From a virus: a stretch of DNA of 38,056 nucleotides. Under the pieces are notes generated by a model. That model had not been told where the DNA came from and did not search any database. It saw nothing but the letters and a program-made list of their open reading frames with translations. Position 1 is the first letter of the stretch; each line of letters starts with the position of its first letter. Below, in pieces: positions 6,905 through 34,600 of the stretch. The stretch is taken from positions 1 to 38,056 of IMG/VR virus record IMGVR_UViG_3300032046_000087. One strand, given 5' to 3'. The position numbers and the translations under genes were made by a program.

Positions 6905-7119
6905 GGTTACGGATAGAGATCGGTTCATTCGTATTCGATACGGTTCTAGGGCGTCCTAGGGCCCATAAGAGCATAGAGGCATCGTTAAAGGAAATACGTG
7001 CAAGGCCGCGCGTGCTGGGCGTTGGAGTGATGGACGAAAGGCGTGAATGGGAGATTGAGCAACAGGAAATCGCCGCTCGGAAAGGTAAGTCTGGAGGATT
7101 CGGGTCTCCAGGTAGTTAG
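6901..7119 (+). CDS. hypothetical protein, 72 aa
   Basis: A GTG start overlaps the upstream stop (GTGA), with GAAGAAGG upstream. The product begins with beta-like RLRIEIGSFVFDTVLG, has a helix rich in Arg/Glu, and a Gly/Ser end. Its last 77 nt overlap the terminase frame, so the terminase may be translated by coupling. The function is unknown. Confidence 0.5.
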   Translation: MRLRIEIGSFVFDTVLGRPRAHKSIEASLKEIRARPRVLGVGVMDERREWEIEQQEIAARKGKSGGFGSPGS

Positions 7120-8629
7120 GGAAGCGGGGTTAAAAAGCCTCTTTTTCTTTGCAAAGCACGTTCTGGGGTATAAGTGGCTACAGGAAGTACCTCACGGACG
7201 TCTTTGTCATAAATTGGAGGTTTTGACGGCGCATTTGAGGCCTGGGACCGGAGTCGAACCCCCGCCCGCACCGCTAAAAAAGGTTATCTTAGAACCCCGG
7301 AAATGGTCGAAAACGACCGTCTGCGCGCATTCTCTGCCTCTGTGGTTGGCGTTGCATAACCCAAACATCAGGTGTCTACTTCATTCCGAGACTATGGAGA
7401 AGCAGGCAGAACCCATGTTGAGGGTTTTGCGCGACCACATAGAGAACAACGCGCTCTTCCGTGGTCTTTATGGGAACCTCCGAGGTGACGCGAAGAGTCT
7501 CAAGTGGGAAAACAAGCAGTTGATCATCGCTTCGCGCACCGCCGTAGGTATGAGGGAGGCTACGTTTACCGCAGGAGCCATCGGAACGACGGAAACGGGC
7601 GGGCATTTTGATTTGATAGTCTCCGACGACCCCGTGAGTGAACATAACACCGAGACCTTAGAGCAGAACCTGAAGGTCCTGGACGACCATCGCCAGTTAT
7701 CAGCCTTCCTAGACAAGGCAAGCGTTATGATCTTAGACGGAACGCGCTACGCATTTGGCGATCTGTACGGATACGTACTCGATCACCCGACTGGATGGGA
7801 CGTCGAGGACGTACACTCGGTCGAAACGGCGGACTACGACAGTTTCTATACGCCGGAATACCTCGAGGCGGAACGCGACGCCCAGGGAGCCGATAGATTT
7901 GCAAACTGGTATCGGAACCTCGTGATTGACCCGGAAACGGCGGTATTCAAGGGCGAATGGTTTGAGACGTGGAGTGGCGAGTTCGACGATCTCCCCGCAA
8001 AAACGGGTATTGTGGCTGCTTTCGACCCCGCCGTGGGCGAGAAACGAAATTCGGATAAGGTCGGCCTTGTCATACTTGCTCGTGCAGGTATCGGACCGTG
8101 CCAACTCTTGGAAGCGAAGGGGATGAGAATAACCCCAACGCGCCTCATAGAGGAGATTTTCAGGGTTCAGGCACAATACGGCCCCATGGGGTTAAAGAGA
8201 ATCGGCATCGAGCTCGTCGGCGGCTTCAAGGTACTTGAGTACTGGCTACGCGAAGAGGAAAAGCGTAGAGATACGTACGTCGTGAGAAAGGAACTTAAAC
8301 CTGGGACATCGGCAGACGCCAAACGAGCGCGCATAAGACTCCTTGCACCCAGATACGAAGCGCGACAGATAAAACATAGGGTCGGAATGACGGATTTGGA
8401 GGAACAGGCCCTACGATTTCCGCTGGGCGACGACGACATCATCGACGCTCTGGCCTTTGCAGTGGAGATGTCGAGGGGGCTATCGCGTGAGAGTAAGGTT
8501 GTGAGCGAAGAGGAAGCGCGACAGTTGGAAAGGGACGCGGCAATTCTCGCTATGAGGAAATCGAAGCCCGGGGAGTTGGTTTTGCCGGGTAACTTCCGTA
8601 GAAACGAGGGGACGTGGTATGACCTCTGA
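7043..8629 (+). CDS. terL: terminase large subunit
   Basis: The 528-residue protein carries a packaging ATPase and nuclease. A Walker-A-like EPRKWSKTT is at residues 84-92 and Walker B (FDLIVSDD) at 189-196. The C-terminal RNase-H-fold nuclease begins near GIVAAFDPAVG (D328), with a late acidic motif DDDIIDALAFAVEM near the end. It cuts concatemers and pumps DNA into the procapsid through the portal. The start is GTG 7043 with GAAAGG upstream; it lies inside the preceding gene, so the first 20 or so residues are less certain. Confidence 0.93.
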   Translation: MNGRLSNRKSPLGKVSLEDSGLQVVREAGLKSLFFFAKHVLGYKWLQEVPHGRLCHKLEVLTAHLRPGTGVEPPPAPLKKVILEPRKWSKTTVCAHSLPLWLALHNPNIRCLLHSETMEKQAEPMLRVLRDHIENNALFRGLYGNLRGDAKSLKWENKQLIIASRTAVGMREATFTAGAIGTTETGGHFDLIVSDDPVSEHNTETLEQNLKVLDDHRQLSAFLDKASVMILDGTRYAFGDLYGYVLDHPTGWDVEDVHSVETADYDSFYTPEYLEAERDAQGADRFANWYRNLVIDPETAVFKGEWFETWSGEFDDLPAKTGIVAAFDPAVGEKRNSDKVGLVILARAGIGPCQLLEAKGMRITPTRLIEEIFRVQAQYGPMGLKRIGIELVGGFKVLEYWLREEEKRRDTYVVRKELKPGTSADAKRARIRLLAPRYEARQIKHRVGMTDLEEQALRFPLGDDDIIDALAFAVEMSRGLSRESKVVSEEEARQLERDAAILAMRKSKPGELVLPGNFRRNEGTWYDL

Positions 8630-8963: not shown

Positions 8964-9326
8964 ATGCCGGTCTACAGTTACGAGTGCAAGGATTGCGGGG
9001 AGTTTGACGCGTACCGGAGGGTCGACGACAGGGCGAACGCCGATTGCCCGACGTGTAAGAAACCCGCACGTAAGGTCCCATTCGTTCGTCAAACGCAGAT
9101 AACGCCTGAGTTCAAGGCCGAATGGTACTATCCGTTTGGGAAGTTCATAGGATCGCGTCGAGAAAGACTTGAAGAGATGAAACGCACGGGAGCGTGGGAA
9201 CCTGGAGACCTAACCCCAAAGGACAACCGGAGGGCGTCACTCGTAGACGCGTGCGAAGACGATTTCTGCGAACAGATAATCGCAGCAAAGAAGAAGGGGG
9301 AATTGAGGAGGCCGGATGGCGGATAA
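8964..9326 (+). CDS. FmdB-type zinc-ribbon protein
   Basis: The N-terminus MPVYSYECKDCGEFDAYRRV with CPTCKKPARKV at about 33-43 is the FmdB-like putative regulatory zinc ribbon. The 120-residue protein then has a helical, charged C-terminal part. The ATG at 8964 is preferred over the frame's earlier start at 8940, which lies inside the membrane peptide. Phages commonly place FmdB-like genes next to terminase and portal. The precise role is unknown. Confidence 0.75.
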   Translation: MPVYSYECKDCGEFDAYRRVDDRANADCPTCKKPARKVPFVRQTQITPEFKAEWYYPFGKFIGSRRERLEEMKRTGAWEPGDLTPKDNRRASLVDACEDDFCEQIIAAKKKGELRRPDGG

Positions 9327-11040
9327 GATTGCGGACAACGTACAGGAACTCTACGAAGTAGCGAGAAATAAGGCTGACACGAACTTCCGTGCCGACTACG
9401 ATCTTTACTGGTCGTACTACATGGCTCGTCAGTGGCCTGGGGACAGAGCGTCTTACAGGTCTGACATCGTACCCAACCTATCCTTTTCCAACATCGAGAC
9501 CATAAAGCCCATACTTACCGATAACAGACCGAATTTCATGGTCATGGGACGTGGTGGAGACGCGGGGGACAGGGTAAAGGCGAAGATCGGGAACGCAATC
9601 TTGCGTTATCTCTGGGACGTGACGAACATGGACTTGAAACTCCCCGAGGGACTCACAAGTGGACTGGCCTTGGGTACGGCCTTTTGGATGATCTATTTCG
9701 ATAGATCGTTAAACGGCGGTCTTGGGGAACTCAATATCGCCCCTATACACCCGAAATTCAATCATCCCGATCCGGCTGCGACCTCGATGGAAGATTCAAG
9801 ATACAACATAGTCGAGTCTATGGTGCCACTTTCGATATTGAGAGAAACCTACGGCGCCGCTGCGGCAGAAGTCAAATCCGACGTCTCACTTGATGATCTG
9901 TACTCGCGTATGGATTCTTCGCAACTTCAAGAGGCAACGGCGCAGGGGCTTCCATCATACGCAGTGGGTACGACGCCGCCCACAAGTTCCGTGCCTTACG
10001 GTAGAACGAACATGGGGGACGGTGGCGGGGACTTGGTAAGGCTCCTACGATGCTGGGTTAGGCCTGGGGGAGCCTTAGACAACGCTAAGGGGCCGCGTAG
10101 CCCTGGCGGTAGGCTCATACACGTTGCAAATCACGTTACGTTGCGTGATGTACCGAACCCCTTTTCCTGGTGTCCCGTCGTGAGGTTTGTCGATCACGTT
10201 CTGCCATCCTGTTTTTGGGGTATGGGCGAGATACAGGAAACGATAACGATACAAAAGGCCTTGAACATGCAGATCGCAAGGCTTGCAGATCACTCAGCCC
10301 TGTGTAGTAACCCCAGGATGCTCTGCGATGCGTCGATCTACGAGGACGTTAAGGATAAACTCACAAACAAACCGGGCCAGATACTGCCCATAGAGAACCC
10401 CGACGGACGGCCCCTGGACTCCCTCATACACTGGCAGGTGCCGCCAAGCATACCACTTTACACCATGCGTCTTATAGAAATCTATCAGCGTTTGTTCGAG
10501 ATCGTTAGCGGCATACACGACGTTACGCAAGGCCGTGCGCCCGCGGGCATCGAGGCGGGGATTGCGATAGAGGCCCTGCAAGTCGAGACGAAGCGCAGAA
10601 TAGGACTTAAAGTCAGAAACATGGAAGCATCGTTAAAACAACTCGGGAAACTACTCCTGAGCGGCGTTGAGACCTTCTGGAGTACGGAGAGGTTAATACA
10701 GGTAAGCGACGCGGAAGAACCCATGAGCGTCACGAAAGATATGTTCAAGGATTTCGAGTATGACGTCAAGGTCGAAGCGGGATCGAGTCTGCCCGTGGAT
10801 AAGGCGGCAGTAGTGATGGAAGCGGAGAACTTAGTCAAACTCGGGGTCTACGACGAGGAACAGTTACTTGAGATCAAAGACCCGCCGAATAAGGAAGAGT
10901 TAAAAAAGCGTATGGGTCCCCTATGGGCACTGAAAAAGGCTGTGATGATGGCTGGACTACAGAAACAACTTGAAATAGCGAGTCAGCCGATGCCGCCGCC
11001 AGGTACGGGCGGTCCAGGCGGACCGGGAGGAGGGATGTAA
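9316..11040 (+). CDS. portal protein, P22-like
   Basis: The 574-residue protein starts at an ATG with GAGGAGG upstream. Recognisable portal features are DYDLYWSYYMARQW near the start, SNIETIKPILTDNRPNF, a wing with IAPIHPKFNHPDP, and the stem-crown region GIHDVTQGRAPAGIEAGIA followed by long helices. The tail is Pro/Gly-rich. It forms the dodecameric channel that docks the terminase and later the tail. The type fits a podovirus-like virion. Confidence 0.88.
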   Translation: MADKIADNVQELYEVARNKADTNFRADYDLYWSYYMARQWPGDRASYRSDIVPNLSFSNIETIKPILTDNRPNFMVMGRGGDAGDRVKAKIGNAILRYLWDVTNMDLKLPEGLTSGLALGTAFWMIYFDRSLNGGLGELNIAPIHPKFNHPDPAATSMEDSRYNIVESMVPLSILRETYGAAAAEVKSDVSLDDLYSRMDSSQLQEATAQGLPSYAVGTTPPTSSVPYGRTNMGDGGGDLVRLLRCWVRPGGALDNAKGPRSPGGRLIHVANHVTLRDVPNPFSWCPVVRFVDHVLPSCFWGMGEIQETITIQKALNMQIARLADHSALCSNPRMLCDASIYEDVKDKLTNKPGQILPIENPDGRPLDSLIHWQVPPSIPLYTMRLIEIYQRLFEIVSGIHDVTQGRAPAGIEAGIAIEALQVETKRRIGLKVRNMEASLKQLGKLLLSGVETFWSTERLIQVSDAEEPMSVTKDMFKDFEYDVKVEAGSSLPVDKAAVVMEAENLVKLGVYDEEQLLEIKDPPNKEELKKRMGPLWALKKAVMMAGLQKQLEIASQPMPPPGTGGPGGPGGGM

Positions 11041-12592: not shown

Positions 12593-13579
12593 TTGCCTGC
12601 TTTTACCTATACGGAAATGGATGCCATTTCCAATAAGTGGATCCGTCCGAAGGCCAGCGACCAGTTCTTCAAGTCAAGTGCGGTATGGGTTAAGATGAAC
12701 GCCATGTCACGGGTAAACCGCAGAGGCGGAAACCCGCTGACCGTGCCCGTGGTGTACGCGCAGAACCTATCTGGCGGATACTACCTGGGGGACGAGACGC
12801 TCAACACCGCACGTGGGAAGAAATGGAACGCTGTGCCTTTTGACTGGAAGCAGTATTACGAGGCGTTGGGACTCGTCGAAAGAGACAGACTTCTACAGTC
12901 GGAGCAAGGTCAGATCAGAATGCAGGTGATCGAAGAGGAAGTCTGCATGAAGACCATGCTGAAGAGACTTGCAGAGGCCCTGTACGGCGACGGGACGGGG
13001 GGATCGTACCTTGACGATCTGTCTGTTACCCGCTACAAGGCGCTTGATGGGCTAAAGCCCGGAACGGGGGCCTGCGGTACGGGGGTTTACCCGCCGAGCA
13101 TCGGATGGAGTCCCGCAGTCGTTCCCACATGGCAATCGGGCGAAGACGGAACGGGTGTGGATTCTACGTCTGTAGCCATTAGCCCAGCCCTCATCAGTAA
13201 GATGATGGTTAAACTCACCTACCAGAATCAGGGGCCGACGATGGTTGCTACCACAAAGGCGCTCTGGTCGGTTTTGTGGTCACACCTACAGCCGCAACAG
13301 CAACTCGCAGTTGACGCCGATCTGGCCAAGGCTGGGTTCCAGCAGATAATGCTGGACGGAAAGCCCGTGGTGTTTGACGACTACTGCACGACTCTCTACT
13401 GCTACGTGCTTAACTTGAATGGCTTTGAACTCTACATACATCCTGACAGAGACTTTTCCAACGAGCCTTGGACAAAGCCTCAGACACAGGACGTAGTGCA
13501 GAGTAAGAAATGGTTTCTAGGCAATCTAACGTGCAACGACCGTAGAGGACAGGGTGTCTTTACGGCGCTAGCTGGATAA
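12593..13579 (+). CDS. major capsid protein
   Basis: A TTG start after AAAAAGGATGTG gives a 328-residue protein. Its position after the scaffold, length, and sequence (FFKSSAVWVKMNAM, then KKWNAVPFDWKQYYEALG, and the end WFLGNLTCNDRRGQGVFTALAG) fit an HK97-fold capsid subunit. The segment WKQYYEALGL would match the long spine helix region. No N-terminal scaffold domain is fused, consistent with the separate gene upstream. Confidence 0.85.
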   Translation: MPAFTYTEMDAISNKWIRPKASDQFFKSSAVWVKMNAMSRVNRRGGNPLTVPVVYAQNLSGGYYLGDETLNTARGKKWNAVPFDWKQYYEALGLVERDRLLQSEQGQIRMQVIEEEVCMKTMLKRLAEALYGDGTGGSYLDDLSVTRYKALDGLKPGTGACGTGVYPPSIGWSPAVVPTWQSGEDGTGVDSTSVAISPALISKMMVKLTYQNQGPTMVATTKALWSVLWSHLQPQQQLAVDADLAKAGFQQIMLDGKPVVFDDYCTTLYCYVLNLNGFELYIHPDRDFSNEPWTKPQTQDVVQSKKWFLGNLTCNDRRGQGVFTALAG

Positions 13580-28704: not shown

Positions 28705-29295
28705 GTGAGAAAGATTCTTATGATTGCGGTCTCCCTGGTACTCGTGGCGACGGTGGTCCAAGCGAAAGTTTTGACGTATCAGGTTGGCGGCAGGGCGAGT
28801 TCGAGTGCTGACCAGAAGTGGAAGGCGATGCTGCTTACTTGGACGACCGGTGGGCTGGACTCGACAGTAATTTCCGTGCTGAGTGATACGACGGCGGCTG
28901 ATGAGGACACGACAAACGCCTTTGATGTAGGCGGGCTTTTTGCAGGGTCGCCAAGGGATACCGTTGGCCTTCTTTTCTTTCATACGGTTGCCGATACCGT
29001 GATTGACAGCCTTCGTTTTGCCGTGGACTACTCGATTGATGGGACGACCTGGATTGCAGGCACGTACTGTGCATACTTCTCTGCCGCCACGTATAACGGC
29101 GCGACGGGTGTAGCCGATAGCACGGTGGCTAAGTACGTTCTGGGGAATCCTGGTGTGGCTGGTGGTATGCAGATATTTGCACCACTGCACAGGGTGAGAG
29201 TGAGTTGTCCCGTTCAGGTAGCTGGGATCGGGGTGACGCTCCAGGACAAGAAACTCAAGGCGTTGACGGTAACCGCTTTCTTCGGCGGGAGGTGA
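28705..29295 (+). CDS. exported beta-rich hypothetical protein, 196 aa
   Basis: The GTG at 28705 has a near-perfect GGAGGTGATC site, so it is chosen over the upstream frame opening at 28582. MRKILMIAVSLVLVATVVQA is a Sec signal peptide. The mature part is Thr/Asp/Val-rich, likely beta sandwich, and ends VTAFFGGR. It is the third exported protein in a row. Function unknown. Confidence 0.65.
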   Translation: MRKILMIAVSLVLVATVVQAKVLTYQVGGRASSSADQKWKAMLLTWTTGGLDSTVISVLSDTTAADEDTTNAFDVGGLFAGSPRDTVGLLFFHTVADTVIDSLRFAVDYSIDGTTWIAGTYCAYFSAATYNGATGVADSTVAKYVLGNPGVAGGMQIFAPLHRVRVSCPVQVAGIGVTLQDKKLKALTVTAFFGGR

Positions 29296-29596: not shown

Positions 29597-30115
29597 ATGC
29601 CACTCGTAATAATCCCTGATAGAGGCAAGAGCCACCACATCGGGGAGAATAAGATCAAGGCGGTGGCGCTACACCATAGCCTCACGACTGATGGCGTGAC
29701 CCTGACCAAGGACGACATCACGGTGGACCACATGGGGCTCGTCCCCTGGTCGCGTTGGTTGGCTCACCCGATGGACCTGGACGGGTACCACGCCTACTGT
29801 GAACTCGTGGATCGCTATTATGAGATCATCGTGGGGCGACCGGAGACGTGGGTGGGCGGTCACTGTCCGCAGGGCGACATGAACGATAAAAGTTTTGGAC
29901 TTTGCTTCATCGGGAACTTTGATCTGGCGCCGCCCCCAGACTTGCAGTTGCTCGTGGCTATCCGAAGGATAATCGTGCCGGTAATGTACCGGTACGACTT
30001 GAGCATAGACGCGGTTAAGGGGCACGCGTACTATGCCAACGATGGAAGGACGTGTCCCGGTAAACTCTTCCCGTGGGATCGGTTCTACGGGATGATAGAG
30101 GAGGAGATCGGATGA
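29597..30115 (+). CDS. N-acetylmuramoyl-L-alanine amidase (endolysin)
   Basis: The 172-residue protein matches the Amidase_2/PGRP fold (T7 lysozyme type). Expected zinc ligands are H26 (in AVALHHS), H143 (in KGHAYYAN) and C153 (in RTCPGK). The core strand SFGLCFIGNFD is at 99-109. It cuts the amide between muramic acid and the stem peptide of murein at lysis. No signal peptide is present, so a holin is required; a holin-like gene follows. Confidence 0.88.
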   Translation: MPLVIIPDRGKSHHIGENKIKAVALHHSLTTDGVTLTKDDITVDHMGLVPWSRWLAHPMDLDGYHAYCELVDRYYEIIVGRPETWVGGHCPQGDMNDKSFGLCFIGNFDLAPPPDLQLLVAIRRIIVPVMYRYDLSIDAVKGHAYYANDGRTCPGKLFPWDRFYGMIEEEIG

Positions 30116-30666: not shown

Positions 30667-30808
30667 AGTAGAATCGCCGTAGACGCACAGGGGAGGCTTA
30701 GGAGACACTCCAAGGTTTCCCAGGTCTATGCCTCAAACGAAGGCCGGATCGCCTACGCTGGGCGGCTGGCCTTTACTGGAGCGTGACAATCGACGAGGGG
30801 GTGAGATC

Positions 30809-31018
30809 GTGAGCGCAGGAATTCAGACAAGCGAGTTTTGGGTAACCTTGGTGATCGCGGTTATAACTGTCGCGGGAGCCACAGCGGGATTGCTAACGGG
30901 CAAACTCACCGCGGAACAATGGCTGATGGCAATGGGTTTTGTAACCGGCGGCGGTGGCGTGTACGCCCTTGCCAGAGGCATAGCCAAGACTAACGGCGGG
31001 GAGGCGATCGGAAAATAA
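30809..31018 (+). CDS. holin-like membrane protein
   Basis: The GTG at 30809 has GGGGGTGAGATC upstream and is preferred over ATG 30728 in the same frame. The 69-residue product has two hydrophobic segments (VTLVIAVITVAGATAGLL and MGFVTGGGGVYALA) around a short loop, and ends in RGIAKTN. This matches small phage holins that open the inner membrane for the amidase. The 140 nt upstream contain no clear gene. Confidence 0.7.
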   Translation: MSAGIQTSEFWVTLVIAVITVAGATAGLLTGKLTAEQWLMAMGFVTGGGGVYALARGIAKTNGGEAIGK

Positions 31019-31022
31019 CCCC

Positions 31023-31051
31023 TTGACAACCGTCGTGGCTCCGACTATAAT
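31023..31051 (+). promoter_or_regulatory. perfect consensus sigma70 promoter
   Basis: TTGACA (31023-31028) and TATAAT (31046-31051) both match the consensus fully and are separated by exactly 17 nt. Transcription should begin near 31058. This is the strongest promoter seen in the window. It begins a second block of rightward genes, right after the late (lysis) block. Confidence 0.9.
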
Positions 31052-31057
31052 GGAAGT

Positions 31058-31181
31058 GTAAAGGGGGCCATGACGTGAACAGAGCAACATCAAAATCGAA
31101 GACCAAGGCAAAGGCCAGAGGGCCGGATACTTCCACGGTTCACGGTGTGGTCCCCATCCGGCCTTTTCCTTTGCCGTTTTT
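31058..31181 (+). ncRNA. candidate small RNA or attenuator leader with intrinsic terminator
   Basis: A transcript from the consensus promoter would end in a long hairpin. Outer stem: GGCAAAGG (31107-31114) with CCTTTGCC (31168-31175). Inner stem: GGCCGGAT (31121-31128) with ATCCGGCC (31156-31163). AGAG/TTTT pairs join the two, leaving only a CC bulge. GTTTTT follows at 31176-31181. The result is a roughly 125-nt terminated RNA, or a leader that regulates read-through into the downstream genes. Promoter and hairpin are seen; the RNA is inferred. Confidence 0.65.
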
Positions 31182-31203
31182 GTTTGGAGGAGATCGTGAT
31201 TGA
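31075..31203 (+). CDS. doubtful 42-aa ORF across the terminator hairpin
   Basis: A GTG start follows AAGGGGG and ends at TGA 31201-31203, overlapping the next gene by 8 nt. The product is basic at the start (SKSKTKAKARG) and Pro/Phe-rich at the end. The frame spans the whole terminator hairpin, so translation would interfere with hairpin folding. That could make it a leader peptide, or it could be a chance frame. Confidence 0.3.
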   Translation: MNRATSKSKTKAKARGPDTSTVHGVVPIRPFPLPFLFGGDRD

Positions 31204-31405
31204 GACGTGGATCGTGATTCGCCTGCTTGGACGGAGTGGTAAACCTAGGTCGGTAAGGAGAAAATACTGGGGCAGAGGCAAGACACTCAACGGTACCGGG
31301 GTACACATCATTGAGGAACCCGGTGCGGTCCGCGAACCGCCACTCGTCCTGACCGACGCCGAGTTCACCGTACGTTTTGTCTGTTTTGAGGCGGAGAAAA
31401 CATAA
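31196..31405 (+). CDS. hypothetical protein, 69 aa
   Basis: GGAGGAGATC precedes the GTG start at 31196, which fixes it over the longer frame from 31145 that overlaps the hairpin. The basic protein begins IETWIVIRLLGRSGK and ends FTVRFVCFEAEKT, with beta-like strands. It is the first clear gene after the consensus promoter and terminator. Function unknown; early expression is inferred. Confidence 0.65.
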   Translation: MIETWIVIRLLGRSGKPRSVRRKYWGRGKTLNGTGVHIIEEPGAVREPPLVLTDAEFTVRFVCFEAEKT

Positions 31406-31599
31406 TGTTACATGGGAAGCAAAATGGGCCGCCCGCATCCTACCTGGGTGCTTCTCACCCAACGCATCTTGCCTGTCAGCCGCGCCACGGGGACAAGGAC
31501 ACCGCAGGACCAACGAAACCGTGGCGTCGAATCACTACGCGGGCGGCCATAATAAGGAGAGAGAATGAAAGAGAACAAACCGAGGCTAGAGATTGTTGA
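31405..31599 (+). CDS. doubtful 64-aa ORF overlying a structured RNA element
   Basis: An ATG overlaps the previous stop and follows GGAG. The product is rich in His, Pro and Arg, looks unstructured, and coincides with the inverted repeats of 31427-31548. It also overlaps the next gene by 35 nt. I think the RNA structure, not this protein, explains the sequence. Confidence 0.25.
   Translation: MLHGKQNGPPASYLGASHPTHLACQPRHGDKDTAGPTKPWRRITTRAAIIRRENEREQTEARDC
31427..31548 (+). ncRNA. candidate structured RNA, three perfect helices
   Basis: GGCCGCCCGC (31427-31436) pairs perfectly with GCGGGCGGCC (31539-31548) and encloses two more helices: GGGTG/CACCC (31446-31450 with 31456-31460) and CGCCACGG/CCGTGGCG (31483-31490 with 31519-31526). 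The result is a three-way-junction-like fold of about 122 nt. It ends 16 nt before the ATG at 31565. No tRNA, hammerhead or known riboswitch pattern was matched by eye. It may be a cis-acting leader or an RNA-processing site. Confidence 0.55.
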
Positions 31600-31768
31600 G
31601 TGGCCTACGGGGGCTATGAAGTTTAGTGATGAACCCATAACAACGGTAACGTTGCGGAAACCTGGATTGTCTGGACCAATTTTGGGGATCACGTGCGCGG
31701 TCTTTGGAGCTGTATGCGGCTGGATCGCGCATGGCCTTCTTACTGGTGGCCACACGTTTTGGAACTGA
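31565..31768 (+). CDS. small membrane protein, 67 aa
   Basis: AAGGAGAGAGA precedes the ATG. The N-terminal 35 residues are soluble (LEIVEWPTGAMKFSDEP). A Gly/Ala hydrophobic segment then follows (ILGITCAVFGAVCGWIAHGLL, about 40-60), probably one membrane span with the N-terminus inside. The gene directly follows the three-helix RNA. Unknown role, perhaps superinfection exclusion or membrane remodelling, which is a guess. Confidence 0.65.
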   Translation: MKENKPRLEIVEWPTGAMKFSDEPITTVTLRKPGLSGPILGITCAVFGAVCGWIAHGLLTGGHTFWN

Positions 31769-32084: not shown

Positions 32085-32567
32085 GTGGAACTTGAGAAGC
32101 GATTTTGGCGAAACGTCAAAAAGACAGAAACGTGTTGGATCTGGACAAGTCGACAGACTTCAGACGGATATGGGCATCTGAAGATCAATGGAAAAGAAAG
32201 GCGTGCCCATCGTGTCGCGTGGGAACTATGTATTGGAATAATCCCGAAATATCTCTTGGTCTGTCATCGTTGCGATGTCCCTCTTTGTGTGAACCCGGCA
32301 CATCTTTTTTTAGGTACGAATGGCGACAATGTACGAGATTCAATAGCTAAGGGACGATGGGGCCATGATCCATCTACTCGCATACAAAAAGAGAACTATC
32401 GTAAGGTCGGGAGGGAAGAAGTGAAGGAAATCCGCCAGTCTGGAGAATCTAATAGAATCCTTGCTAGACGATTTCGAATAAGTAATCAGCAGATTTCCAA
32501 GATCAAACTTCGTCAACAATGGAAATGGGTAGATTCAAACAGACCTAGCGGCGAGGATAGCCGCTGA
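32085..32567 (+). CDS. HNH homing endonuclease with C-terminal HTH
   Basis: The 160-residue protein has the HNH_3 layout: W-I-W at 18-20, H42, then CHRCDVPLCVNPAHLFLGTNGDN (60-82). The C-terminal 50 residues (EEVKEIRQSGESNRILARRF, ISNQQISKIKL) form a helix-turn-helix. It is a free-standing mobile endonuclease that cuts DNA and promotes its own spread. Codons here are more A/T-rich than in neighbours, which fits recent transfer. The start is GTG after AAAAAGGAGATGTA. Confidence 0.85.
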   Translation: MELEKRFWRNVKKTETCWIWTSRQTSDGYGHLKINGKERRAHRVAWELCIGIIPKYLLVCHRCDVPLCVNPAHLFLGTNGDNVRDSIAKGRWGHDPSTRIQKENYRKVGREEVKEIRQSGESNRILARRFRISNQQISKIKLRQQWKWVDSNRPSGEDSR

Positions 32568-32569
32568 AC

Positions 32570-32612
32570 GCTCGTGGTCGCTTTGTAACAAGGCGTCAGG
32601 GCGACCACGGGC
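32570..32612 (+). promoter_or_regulatory. 12-bp intercistronic stem-loop
   Basis: GCTCGTGGTCGC (32570-32581) pairs with GCGACCACGGGC (32601-32612) over 12 bp with one U-G wobble and a 19-nt loop. It lies between the HNH gene and the annealing-like gene, 18 nt before the latter's ATG, where no Shine-Dalgarno is visible. It shares outer GCTCG/CGGGC pairing and a following AAC with the stem at 35232-35303. Confidence 0.55.
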
Positions 32613-32629
32613 AAACATGCAGGCAAACA

Positions 32630-33601: not shown

Positions 33602-33837
33602 CCCCCGAGCTTGCCAACAAACTCTTGCGTGAACACGGCTGGGATTGGAACGTGGTATACTATGCAAGCGAAGCCGATTGCCCGCATTGCAAGGAACGAA
33701 TGGATAGGGGGCAAGTGACCGACGGCACACAACGGTGGTACTGGTATTGCAAAAACGATCACTGTGTGGCGGAGCATCACGGCGGCTGGAGAGGGTGGTG
33801 CAAGCCACCGGAGGAAGGCGAGATCGAGGATGAATGA
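33598..33837 (+). CDS. zinc-ribbon mini-protein, 79 aa
   Basis: The ATG at 33598 overlaps the previous stop and follows GGAAGG. The protein contains CPHCKERM at about 28-35 and CKNDHC at about 51-56, a four-Cys zinc site, followed by a Trp/Gly-rich stretch. It is Trp/Tyr-rich overall. It precedes the Ala/Trp repeat gene with an 8-nt overlap. Function unknown. Confidence 0.65.
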   Translation: MTPELANKLLREHGWDWNVVYYASEADCPHCKERMDRGQVTDGTQRWYWYCKNDHCVAEHHGGWRGWCKPPEEGEIEDE

Positions 33838-34600
33838 TGACATCGAAATCCTTGCATGGCATTTTAGCGCTGATGACGGGCGCCTCAATTTCGGCGAGCG
33901 TCCGAAAGTTATAGTCGGCGAATGGATGCGCGCTGAAGGTCCGCTCATCATGTGCAGGAACGGCATGCACGCATCCCGCGACCCGTTCGGTGCTCTCCAA
34001 TATGCGCAAGGATCGCTCCTCTCACACGTGGAATGTCGGGGAGAGATCGAGGAGGAGACGGACAAAATCGTGTGCCGTGAACGCAAACATCTCTGGCAAT
34101 ACGATGCAACGAAAGAATTGCGGCTTTTCGCCTGTTGGTGCGTGCGAGAAACGCCGCTCCATGACAGCCGAAAGGTGTGGAATTTGCTCACGGATGAGCG
34201 CAGTCGAAACGCCGTCATCGCAGCGGAAAGATTCGCGCAAGGCCAGGCTACAAGGGAGGACCTGGCTTCGGCTAAGGCTGCGGCTTGGGCTGCGGCTAGG
34301 ACTGCGGCTTGGGATGTGGCTTTGGCTGCGGCTTGGGATGCGGCTTCGGCTGCGGCTAGGACTGCGGCTTGGGATGTGGCTTCGGCTGCGGCTAGGACTG
34401 CGGGTTGGGCTGCGGCTTCGGCTGCGGCTTGGGATGTGGCTTGGGATGCGGCTTGGGATGCGGCTTGGGATGTGGCTTCGGCTGCGGCTAGGGATGCGGC
34501 TTGGGATGTGGCTTGGGCTGCGGCTTCGGCTGCGCAGAAAGCGCGGTTCAACGAAATCGTTGCGAAAATCGCGGAAGAAATGGAGCCCGAGCATGGGTAA
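33830..34600 (+). CDS. phage protein with C-terminal Ala/Trp tandem repeats
   Basis: The ATG at 33830 gives a 256-residue protein. The first 120 residues have IMCRNGMHASRDPFGALQYAQG and a D-K-I-V-C element; I have seen this type of domain in unnamed phage proteins ending in Ala-rich tails. Residues about 145-235 are Ala-rich repeats such as AAWDVA and AASAAAR, probably a long amphipathic helix or solenoid. Repeat number should vary between relatives. The function is unknown. The gene overlaps both neighbours. Confidence 0.65.
   Translation: MNDDIEILAWHFSADDGRLNFGERPKVIVGEWMRAEGPLIMCRNGMHASRDPFGALQYAQGSLLSHVECRGEIEEETDKIVCRERKHLWQYDATKELRLFACWCVRETPLHDSRKVWNLLTDERSRNAVIAAERFAQGQATREDLASAKAAAWAAARTAAWDVALAAAWDAASAAARTAAWDVASAAARTAGWAAASAAAWDVAWDAAWDAAWDVASAAARDAAWDVAWAAASAAQKARFNEIVAKIAEEMEPEHG
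34263..34535 (+). repeat. degenerate tandem repeat, 6/12-bp units (GGCTGC/GGCTTC/GGATGC)
   Basis: About 270 bp consist of imperfect six-base units such as GGCTGC, GGCTTG, GGATGT and GGCTAG arranged in higher-order 12-36 bp blocks. They encode the Ala/Trp/Asp/Val repeats. All other frames stay open too, creating long artefactual ORFs on both strands. Repeats of this type expand or shrink through slippage. Confidence 0.85.

Follow-up and report, generated by a model that had tools for sequence, protein, structure and literature searches.

What does a perfect sigma70-type promoter do when it stands directly before a strong hairpin in the genome of a tailed phage? It might produce a short terminated RNA that acts on its own, or it might head the genes that follow. 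The preliminary description of this locus offered three options, namely a regulatory sRNA, an anti-host RNA, and an attenuated leader of the second gene block.

The genome and its relative

The window, that is, the whole stretch of DNA analyzed, is the entire IMG/VR record IMGVR_UViG_3300032046_000087 (38,056 bases). All of its convincing genes lie on the + strand. Genes for tail and internal virion proteins, together with the following, identify it as the genome of an uncultured, tailed, P22-like phage.

7043–8629, terminase
9316–11040, portal protein, P22/SU10-like
12593–13579, major head protein
29597–30115, amidase endolysin

No polymerase, helicase, or repressor gene was recognizable among the ORFs scanned in the window. 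The terminase has only ~25% identity to those of cultured phages. Its top match among the annotated-phage matches listed was from ANMV-1 virus, associated with an uncultured methane-seep archaeon (26.5%), and the next matches listed were from Vibrio and other phages (~24%).

The locus is covered in one close relative, IMGVR_UViG_3300035659_000058 (37,150 bases, portal 96% identical), hereafter the relative. The two genomes share the same gene order, and the relative ends at a different point, its first bases matching position 28,768 of the window. Because the ends are shifted within the same gene order, both genomes look near-complete, each a circular permutation of one and the same genome. 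Searches with portal, capsid, and terminase found no further relative covering the 31-kb locus, and protein searches with queries from the locus itself returned this relative only. When IMG/VR was scanned for exact patterns of the hairpin, the leader, and an element at 31.4 kb, this relative was again the sole match. The leader pattern had no match in prokaryote genomes, and a DNA search of annotated phages gave a 25-bp chance match only.

Promoter and hairpin at 31 kb

The locus consists of a compact cassette followed by a gene.

31012–31190, + strand, cassette of promoter, leader, hairpin, and U run, 91% identical to positions 2224–2401 of the relative
31023–31051, + strand, sigma70-type promoter TTGACA-17-TATAAT, 12/12 match
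31107–31175, + strand, 20-bp hairpin of 8 + 12 bp with a CC bulge and an apical loop of 27 nt
31177–31185, + strand, U run UUUUUGUUU; UUUUGUUU in the relative
31196–31405, + strand, first gene after the leader (69 aa, function unassigned), GTG start

The promoter had been described as perfect, and it matches at all 12 positions (−35 TTGACA at 31023–31028, 17-nt spacer, −10 TATAAT at 31046–31051). A base-composition model covering both strands and spacers of 16–18 predicts about 0.006 perfect sites in the window by chance. The aligned site in the relative, at its position 2235, is TTGACA-17-TATACT (11/12). With both sequences of the genome alignment scored, this was the only aligned site with at least 10/12 in window and relative, and is thereby the only predicted strong sigma70-type promoter common to the two ~37–38 kb genomes. 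From the promoter, transcripts are predicted to start at ~31058–31060.

The hairpin begins 49 nt past this expected start, in agreement with the earlier account of a ~20-bp helix with one CC bulge and a U run, ~50 nt past the start. Its outer stem pairs 31107–31114 with 31168–31175 (8 bp) and its inner stem 31117–31128 with 31156–31167 (12 bp), with the CC bulge at 31115–31116. The folding energy is −39.4 to −39.7 kcal/mol, the fourth most stable among 72-nt + strand hairpins of the window, and the 126-nt transcript as a whole has a fold z-score of −2.7 (2/200 shuffles as good). Directly 3' of the stem the letters are G UUUUU G UUU. As in an intrinsic terminator, a G+C-rich 20-bp stem is thus followed at once by GUUUUUGUUU, and the layout is the same in the relative. 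The U run is present on the + strand side only. An apical loop of 27 nt is unusually large for an intrinsic terminator, and a terminator-pattern scan of the window did not list the 31-kb hairpin because the scan takes loops of ≤8 nt.

The relative preserves every hairpin pair, with none broken. It differs in the bulge and apical loop and at the weak A-U/G-U pairs beside the bulge, and no compensatory changes occur in this comparison with one relative. Avoidance of paired positions by substitutions was considered and dropped as not significant (paired versus unpaired, Fisher p = 0.14, one relative). Rfam gave no matches in the window at the gathering threshold; under permissive settings the best was ctRNA_p42d, with 16.4 bits versus 50 needed (E = 2.8).

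A predicted competing fold between leader and loop

The leader upstream of the hairpin can pair with the hairpin's own apical part. We term this pairing fold A, and the terminator hairpin fold T.

31063–31080, + strand, 5' strand of fold A, GGGGGCCAU (SD) and CGUGAAC (GUG start)
31138–31155, + strand, 3' strand of fold A, GUUCACG..GUGGUCCCC, the apical part of the hairpin
31075–31203, + strand, 42-codon leader ORF, GTG start, SD GGGGG, TGA stop

Fold A comprises 16 bp (31063–31071 with 31147–31155, and 31074–31080 with 31138–31144), and the SD and GUG of the 42-codon ORF lie in its 5' strand. This strand is identical in the relative, and both pairing strands are invariant. The leader:loop pairing energy is −31.6 kcal/mol in the window and −30.2 kcal/mol in the relative, ranking 1 among 70 and 59 + strand hairpins, respectively. 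Only 0 to 3 of 5000 leader shuffles were as good as −31.6 (shuffle means −16.6 to −17.5), and 0/2000 in a repeat test for window and relative each, figures that are somewhat optimistic because the complementarity was noticed before it was tested. In a plain genome scan with the same geometry, 0.6% of places match the leader:loop energy. The leader:loop complementarity at 31 kb exceeds chance.

By prefix folding, fold A is the minimum-energy structure at ~90 to 120 nt and fold T at 125 nt. The two are near-equal in energy in the window (A −39.7 vs. T −39.4), the values in the relative being −35.3 and −39.3. For longer transcripts of the window, the minimum is A at some lengths and T at others, and the energy model therefore leaves the outcome unfixed. 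The direct path between A and T has a barrier of ~30 kcal/mol (findpath, an upper bound). Because the 3' strand of A runs straight into the 3' arm of T, the full helices could, on geometric grounds, hardly coexist. A and T would then be mutually exclusive and competing folds, both conserved, as in an attenuator. A home-made simulation of co-transcriptional folding had A dominant in both genomes, but its leaderless control formed no terminator; the method was therefore discarded and supports nothing.

A covarying sister module at 2.4 kb

No other copy of the 31-kb cassette was found by sequence in the genome, and one structural sister is present at 2.4 kb. Its hairpin was found through a scan for strong hairpins.

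2389–2417, + strand, promoter-like TTGACA-17-TATGGT, weaker and poorly kept in the relative
2424–2555, + strand, sister module with the same layout as at 31 kb
2437–2445, + strand, leader strand UCGACGCGA, ending at the AUG of a 36-codon ORF
2445–2555, + strand, 36-codon ORF MRQKNRLKAEARGYQVPFDSRRDLMASLFSADSRGH, ATG start, SD AAAGGAG
2468–2537, + strand, long hairpin within the 36-codon ORF, with a 25-bp stem and an apical hairpin
2502–2510, + strand, apical-loop strand UCGCGUCGA, partner of the leader strand

The 36-codon ORF stops 4 nt before the next ATG (2560). Its leader strand (2437–2445) is perfectly complementary to the loop strand (2502–2510). The corresponding strands of the relative are UCAGGAUGA and UCAUCCUGA, with five of the nine pairs changed on both sides and all of them Watson–Crick. 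When the whole genome alignment was searched for complementary 9-bp segments, 20–130 nt apart, that stay paired through four or more two-sided changes, this helix was the only such case among 125,542 placements. The change in the loop is shared in part with a small apical stem, and the leader strand lies outside that stem. By energy alone the sister leader:loop pairing is weak (p = 0.03 and 0.14). The hairpin itself has two-sided changes in 6/30 pairs between window and relative, with 98% of cells paired.

This covariation is the strongest evidence that leader:loop pairing is under selection in this phage. Like the elements of the 31-kb cassette, their conservation, and the near-equal energies of the two folds, it is directly observed. 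Covariation in the stems had been put forward earlier as a check on the 31-kb hairpin, where the one relative offers neither a compensatory change nor a broken pair; it is found instead in the sister module, which had gone unmentioned.

No U run follows the sister hairpin, and termination would accordingly be peculiar to the 31-kb copy rather than a feature of both modules. RNase III sites lie between T7 early genes, and the 31-kb hairpin could have a similar role, being cleaved by RNase III or stabilizing the 5' end of an early mRNA, instead of terminating transcription. Such a role would suit the bulged stems of 20 and 25 bp in the two modules, the 2.4-kb hairpin that has no U run, and the further hairpins between genes of the same block. 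It is nevertheless quite unlikely in our estimation, given the U run directly 3' of the 31-kb stem in both genomes and a cleavage reaction that does not need leader:loop pairing.

The leader ORF and the start of the next gene

A 42-codon ORF crossing the hairpin had been reported, and we find it to extend from GTG 31075 to TGA 31203. The SD GGGGG is followed after 7 nt by the GTG, a good distance. At its 3' end the ORF extends over the GTG (31196) with which the next ORF starts. Its counterpart in the relative has 41 codons and the same GTG (2287–2412), and ends in ATGA on the start of an inserted gene. Compared with the relative, the window has one base missing before the inner stem and one extra in the 3' arm; this −1/+1 pair of indels leaves the register intact, and in both genomes the frame runs out on the next start. 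Between the indels the peptides are unrelated (RGPDTSTVHGVVPIR vs. SRAGYLHGSRCGPHPA), and no conservation is seen past codon 14. The leader peptide had no Pfam or PHROG match, and tblastn gave matches at E 6–8 only. With no family match, the idea that it is a known protein was dropped. This pattern fits an ORF for which translation itself may matter and not its product, or one that is open by chance.

The same evidence bears on whether the promoter serves a stand-alone regulatory or anti-host sRNA of ~125 nt, with a terminator of full strength and an incidental ORF. Such an RNA would explain the perfect promoter and the strong hairpin with its U run, as well as the conservation of the cassette as a unit though neighboring genes change. 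It would not explain why, in two genomes, a well-spaced SD and start open a frame whose end falls on the following start codon, or why the U run and the next gene's SD adjoin in each of them, and it would leave the downstream genes without any other strong conserved promoter. With no Rfam match either, we consider a stand-alone sRNA unlikely. The free sRNA and anti-host RNA of the preliminary description are less likely, with neither a homologue nor a family found, and its attenuated leader of the second gene block is the best supported of the three options on the strength of the promoter, the position before the block, the ORF overlap, and the competing pairing. We therefore favor, at a probability of about one half, a leader switch (a translation-coupled attenuator) that heads the downstream block rather than a free sRNA.

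Borders of the cassette

Directly upstream of the cassette, a small membrane-protein ORF is swapped for an unrelated ORF in the relative. Directly downstream, the relative has an inserted 115-nt gene (41-codon ORF), the SD of which begins immediately past the U run. In the window it is the SD of the 31196–31405 gene (GGAGGAG) that adjoins the U run, so that the U run abuts the next SD in both genomes. Since the neighbors differ on both sides, the unit that has been kept is the promoter, leader, hairpin, and U run. It is located after the lysis genes and before a variable + strand block, which probably consists of early genes. The coincidence of its borders with gene replacement bears on how genes are swapped around fixed regulatory units in small phages.

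Promoter-early stem-loops (PeSLs) of T4-like phages (Arbiol et al. 2010, Comeau et al. 2014) are, as described where they are cited in PMC4503421, a host-type promoter and a terminator stem-loop at places where close relatives swap genes. The 31-kb cassette resembles them in this respect, having a strong sigma70-type promoter and a terminator-like stem-loop; in the only relative, the gene on one side of it is replaced and a gene has been inserted on the opposite side. It could accordingly be an insulated, recombining boundary of exchangeable genes, at which termination is constitutive and read-through unregulated. PeSLs, however, occur as many similar, mutually recombining copies. The strong promoter at 31 kb is the single one of its kind, the sister having only a weak promoter match, and the phage is an unrelated one with a small genome; the resemblance is one of anatomy. 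Also unlike PeSLs as described there, the cassette has a predicted translated leader ORF and leader:loop pairing, and an insulated boundary would leave this pairing and its covariation in the sister module unexplained. We regard such a boundary as quite unlikely.

Proposed mechanism

For the leader switch, we infer promoter use, termination, read-through, switching, translation, and coupling from the sequences of the two genomes. The perfect sigma70-type promoter would start the variable block and yield a leader with two competing folds. Fold A would be possible first, with the SD and GUG paired over 16 bp to a segment ~75 nt downstream. Fold T would need 20 nt more, and the partner segment of A would then become the apical loop of the terminator hairpin. 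While it lasts, A would conceal the leader start and impede T, favoring read-through; T would release the leader start and favor termination near 31177–31185. Given time, or a ribosome or other factor occupying the leader strand, the hairpin would form and the polymerase may stop. A ribosome already within the hairpin would again prevent it from forming. Ribosome loading on the leader ORF or transit through the hairpin would in this way shift the balance between A and T, and the overlap with the next start would couple translation of the leader to that of the next gene.

Ribosomes have little effect on a terminator that lies no more than 100 bp into a coding region, which loses ~10% of its efficiency when translated (PMC4824070). 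Plain translation coupling therefore probably does not explain everything, and the switch between start codon and loop becomes the more interesting part. If the mechanism is correct, the phage would gate its main gene block by RNA alone from one strong host-type promoter, with the leader itself choosing between stopping and continuing transcription. A terminator whose apical loop pairs with the start codon of its own leader would depart from the usual attenuator logic. The covarying second copy makes this a testable design and not a one-off hairpin.

We classify the cassette as a novel variation on phage leader/attenuator RNAs. A bolder proposal, which we hold tentatively and rate somewhat below even odds, is that it belongs to a new class of phage cis-acting RNA switch with at least two members in this genome, in which a short leader ORF holds a long hairpin, the apical loop pairs with the ribosome-binding site and start codon of that ORF, and the timing of the nascent RNA together with leader translation gates the downstream genes.

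Comparison with known leaders

As in the trp and pyrBI attenuators, the latter mentioned in PMC4824070 as a ribosome-mediated transcription attenuator, the first gene at the 31-kb locus is preceded by a promoter, a short leader ORF, competing folds, and a terminator-like hairpin with its U run. Unlike in trp and pyrBI, the 5' strand covers the leader's own SD and start and pairs with the apical loop rather than with a terminator arm, and no amino-acid control codons are evident in the leader.

Leaders of plasmid rep genes have an ORF that overlaps the next start, a large stem-loop, and a loop that pairs elsewhere in the same mRNA. The 31-kb leader shares its ORF overlap, large stem-loop, and loop pairing within the mRNA with the IncI repY/repZ pseudoknot and R1 tap/repA leaders, both named in titles that PMC10724649 cites. 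It differs from the plasmid leaders in that no antisense promoter or RNA was found at 31 kb, in that its loop partner is the start of the leader ORF itself rather than that of the downstream gene, and in being from a phage.

The put RNA of HK022 has two stem-loops, binds RNA polymerase, and acts far downstream (PMC9378689). Similarly, the 31-kb leader is a structured RNA right after a phage promoter that is probably early, where it would decide between termination and read-through; the likeness is by position only. A ~70-nt RNA of two stem-loops after an early promoter, as in put, is not what we find at 31 kb. The leader instead has a single long hairpin followed by a U run, and it matches nothing in Rfam.

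Other structured elements nearby

Several other segments near the cassette are conserved or structured. Positions 30712–30808, which are nearly unchanged in the relative and contain a hairpin (GAAGGCCGGAUCGCC/GGCGGCUGGCCUUU), directly precede the small membrane-protein gene for which the relative has a different one. The ~130 nt at 31427–31556, before the ORF at 31565–31768, are ~94% identical to positions 2749–2876 of the relative despite frame-breaking indels. A 10-bp closing helix (GGCCGCCCGC/GCGGGCGGCC) and inner hairpins are predicted there, which suggests another structured RNA; this segment has no match in Rfam.

Further downstream, an intergenic hairpin of 16 bp at 32545–32617 (−41.6 kcal/mol) is conserved, with pairs swapped between G-U and A-U in the relative, which lacks the HNH endonuclease gene (32085–32567) that immediately precedes the hairpin. 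Lastly, the ORF at 33764–34600 (DUF7666 match) has internal repeats at 34264–34534, which give rise to several shifted alignments with the relative and to very stable hairpins.
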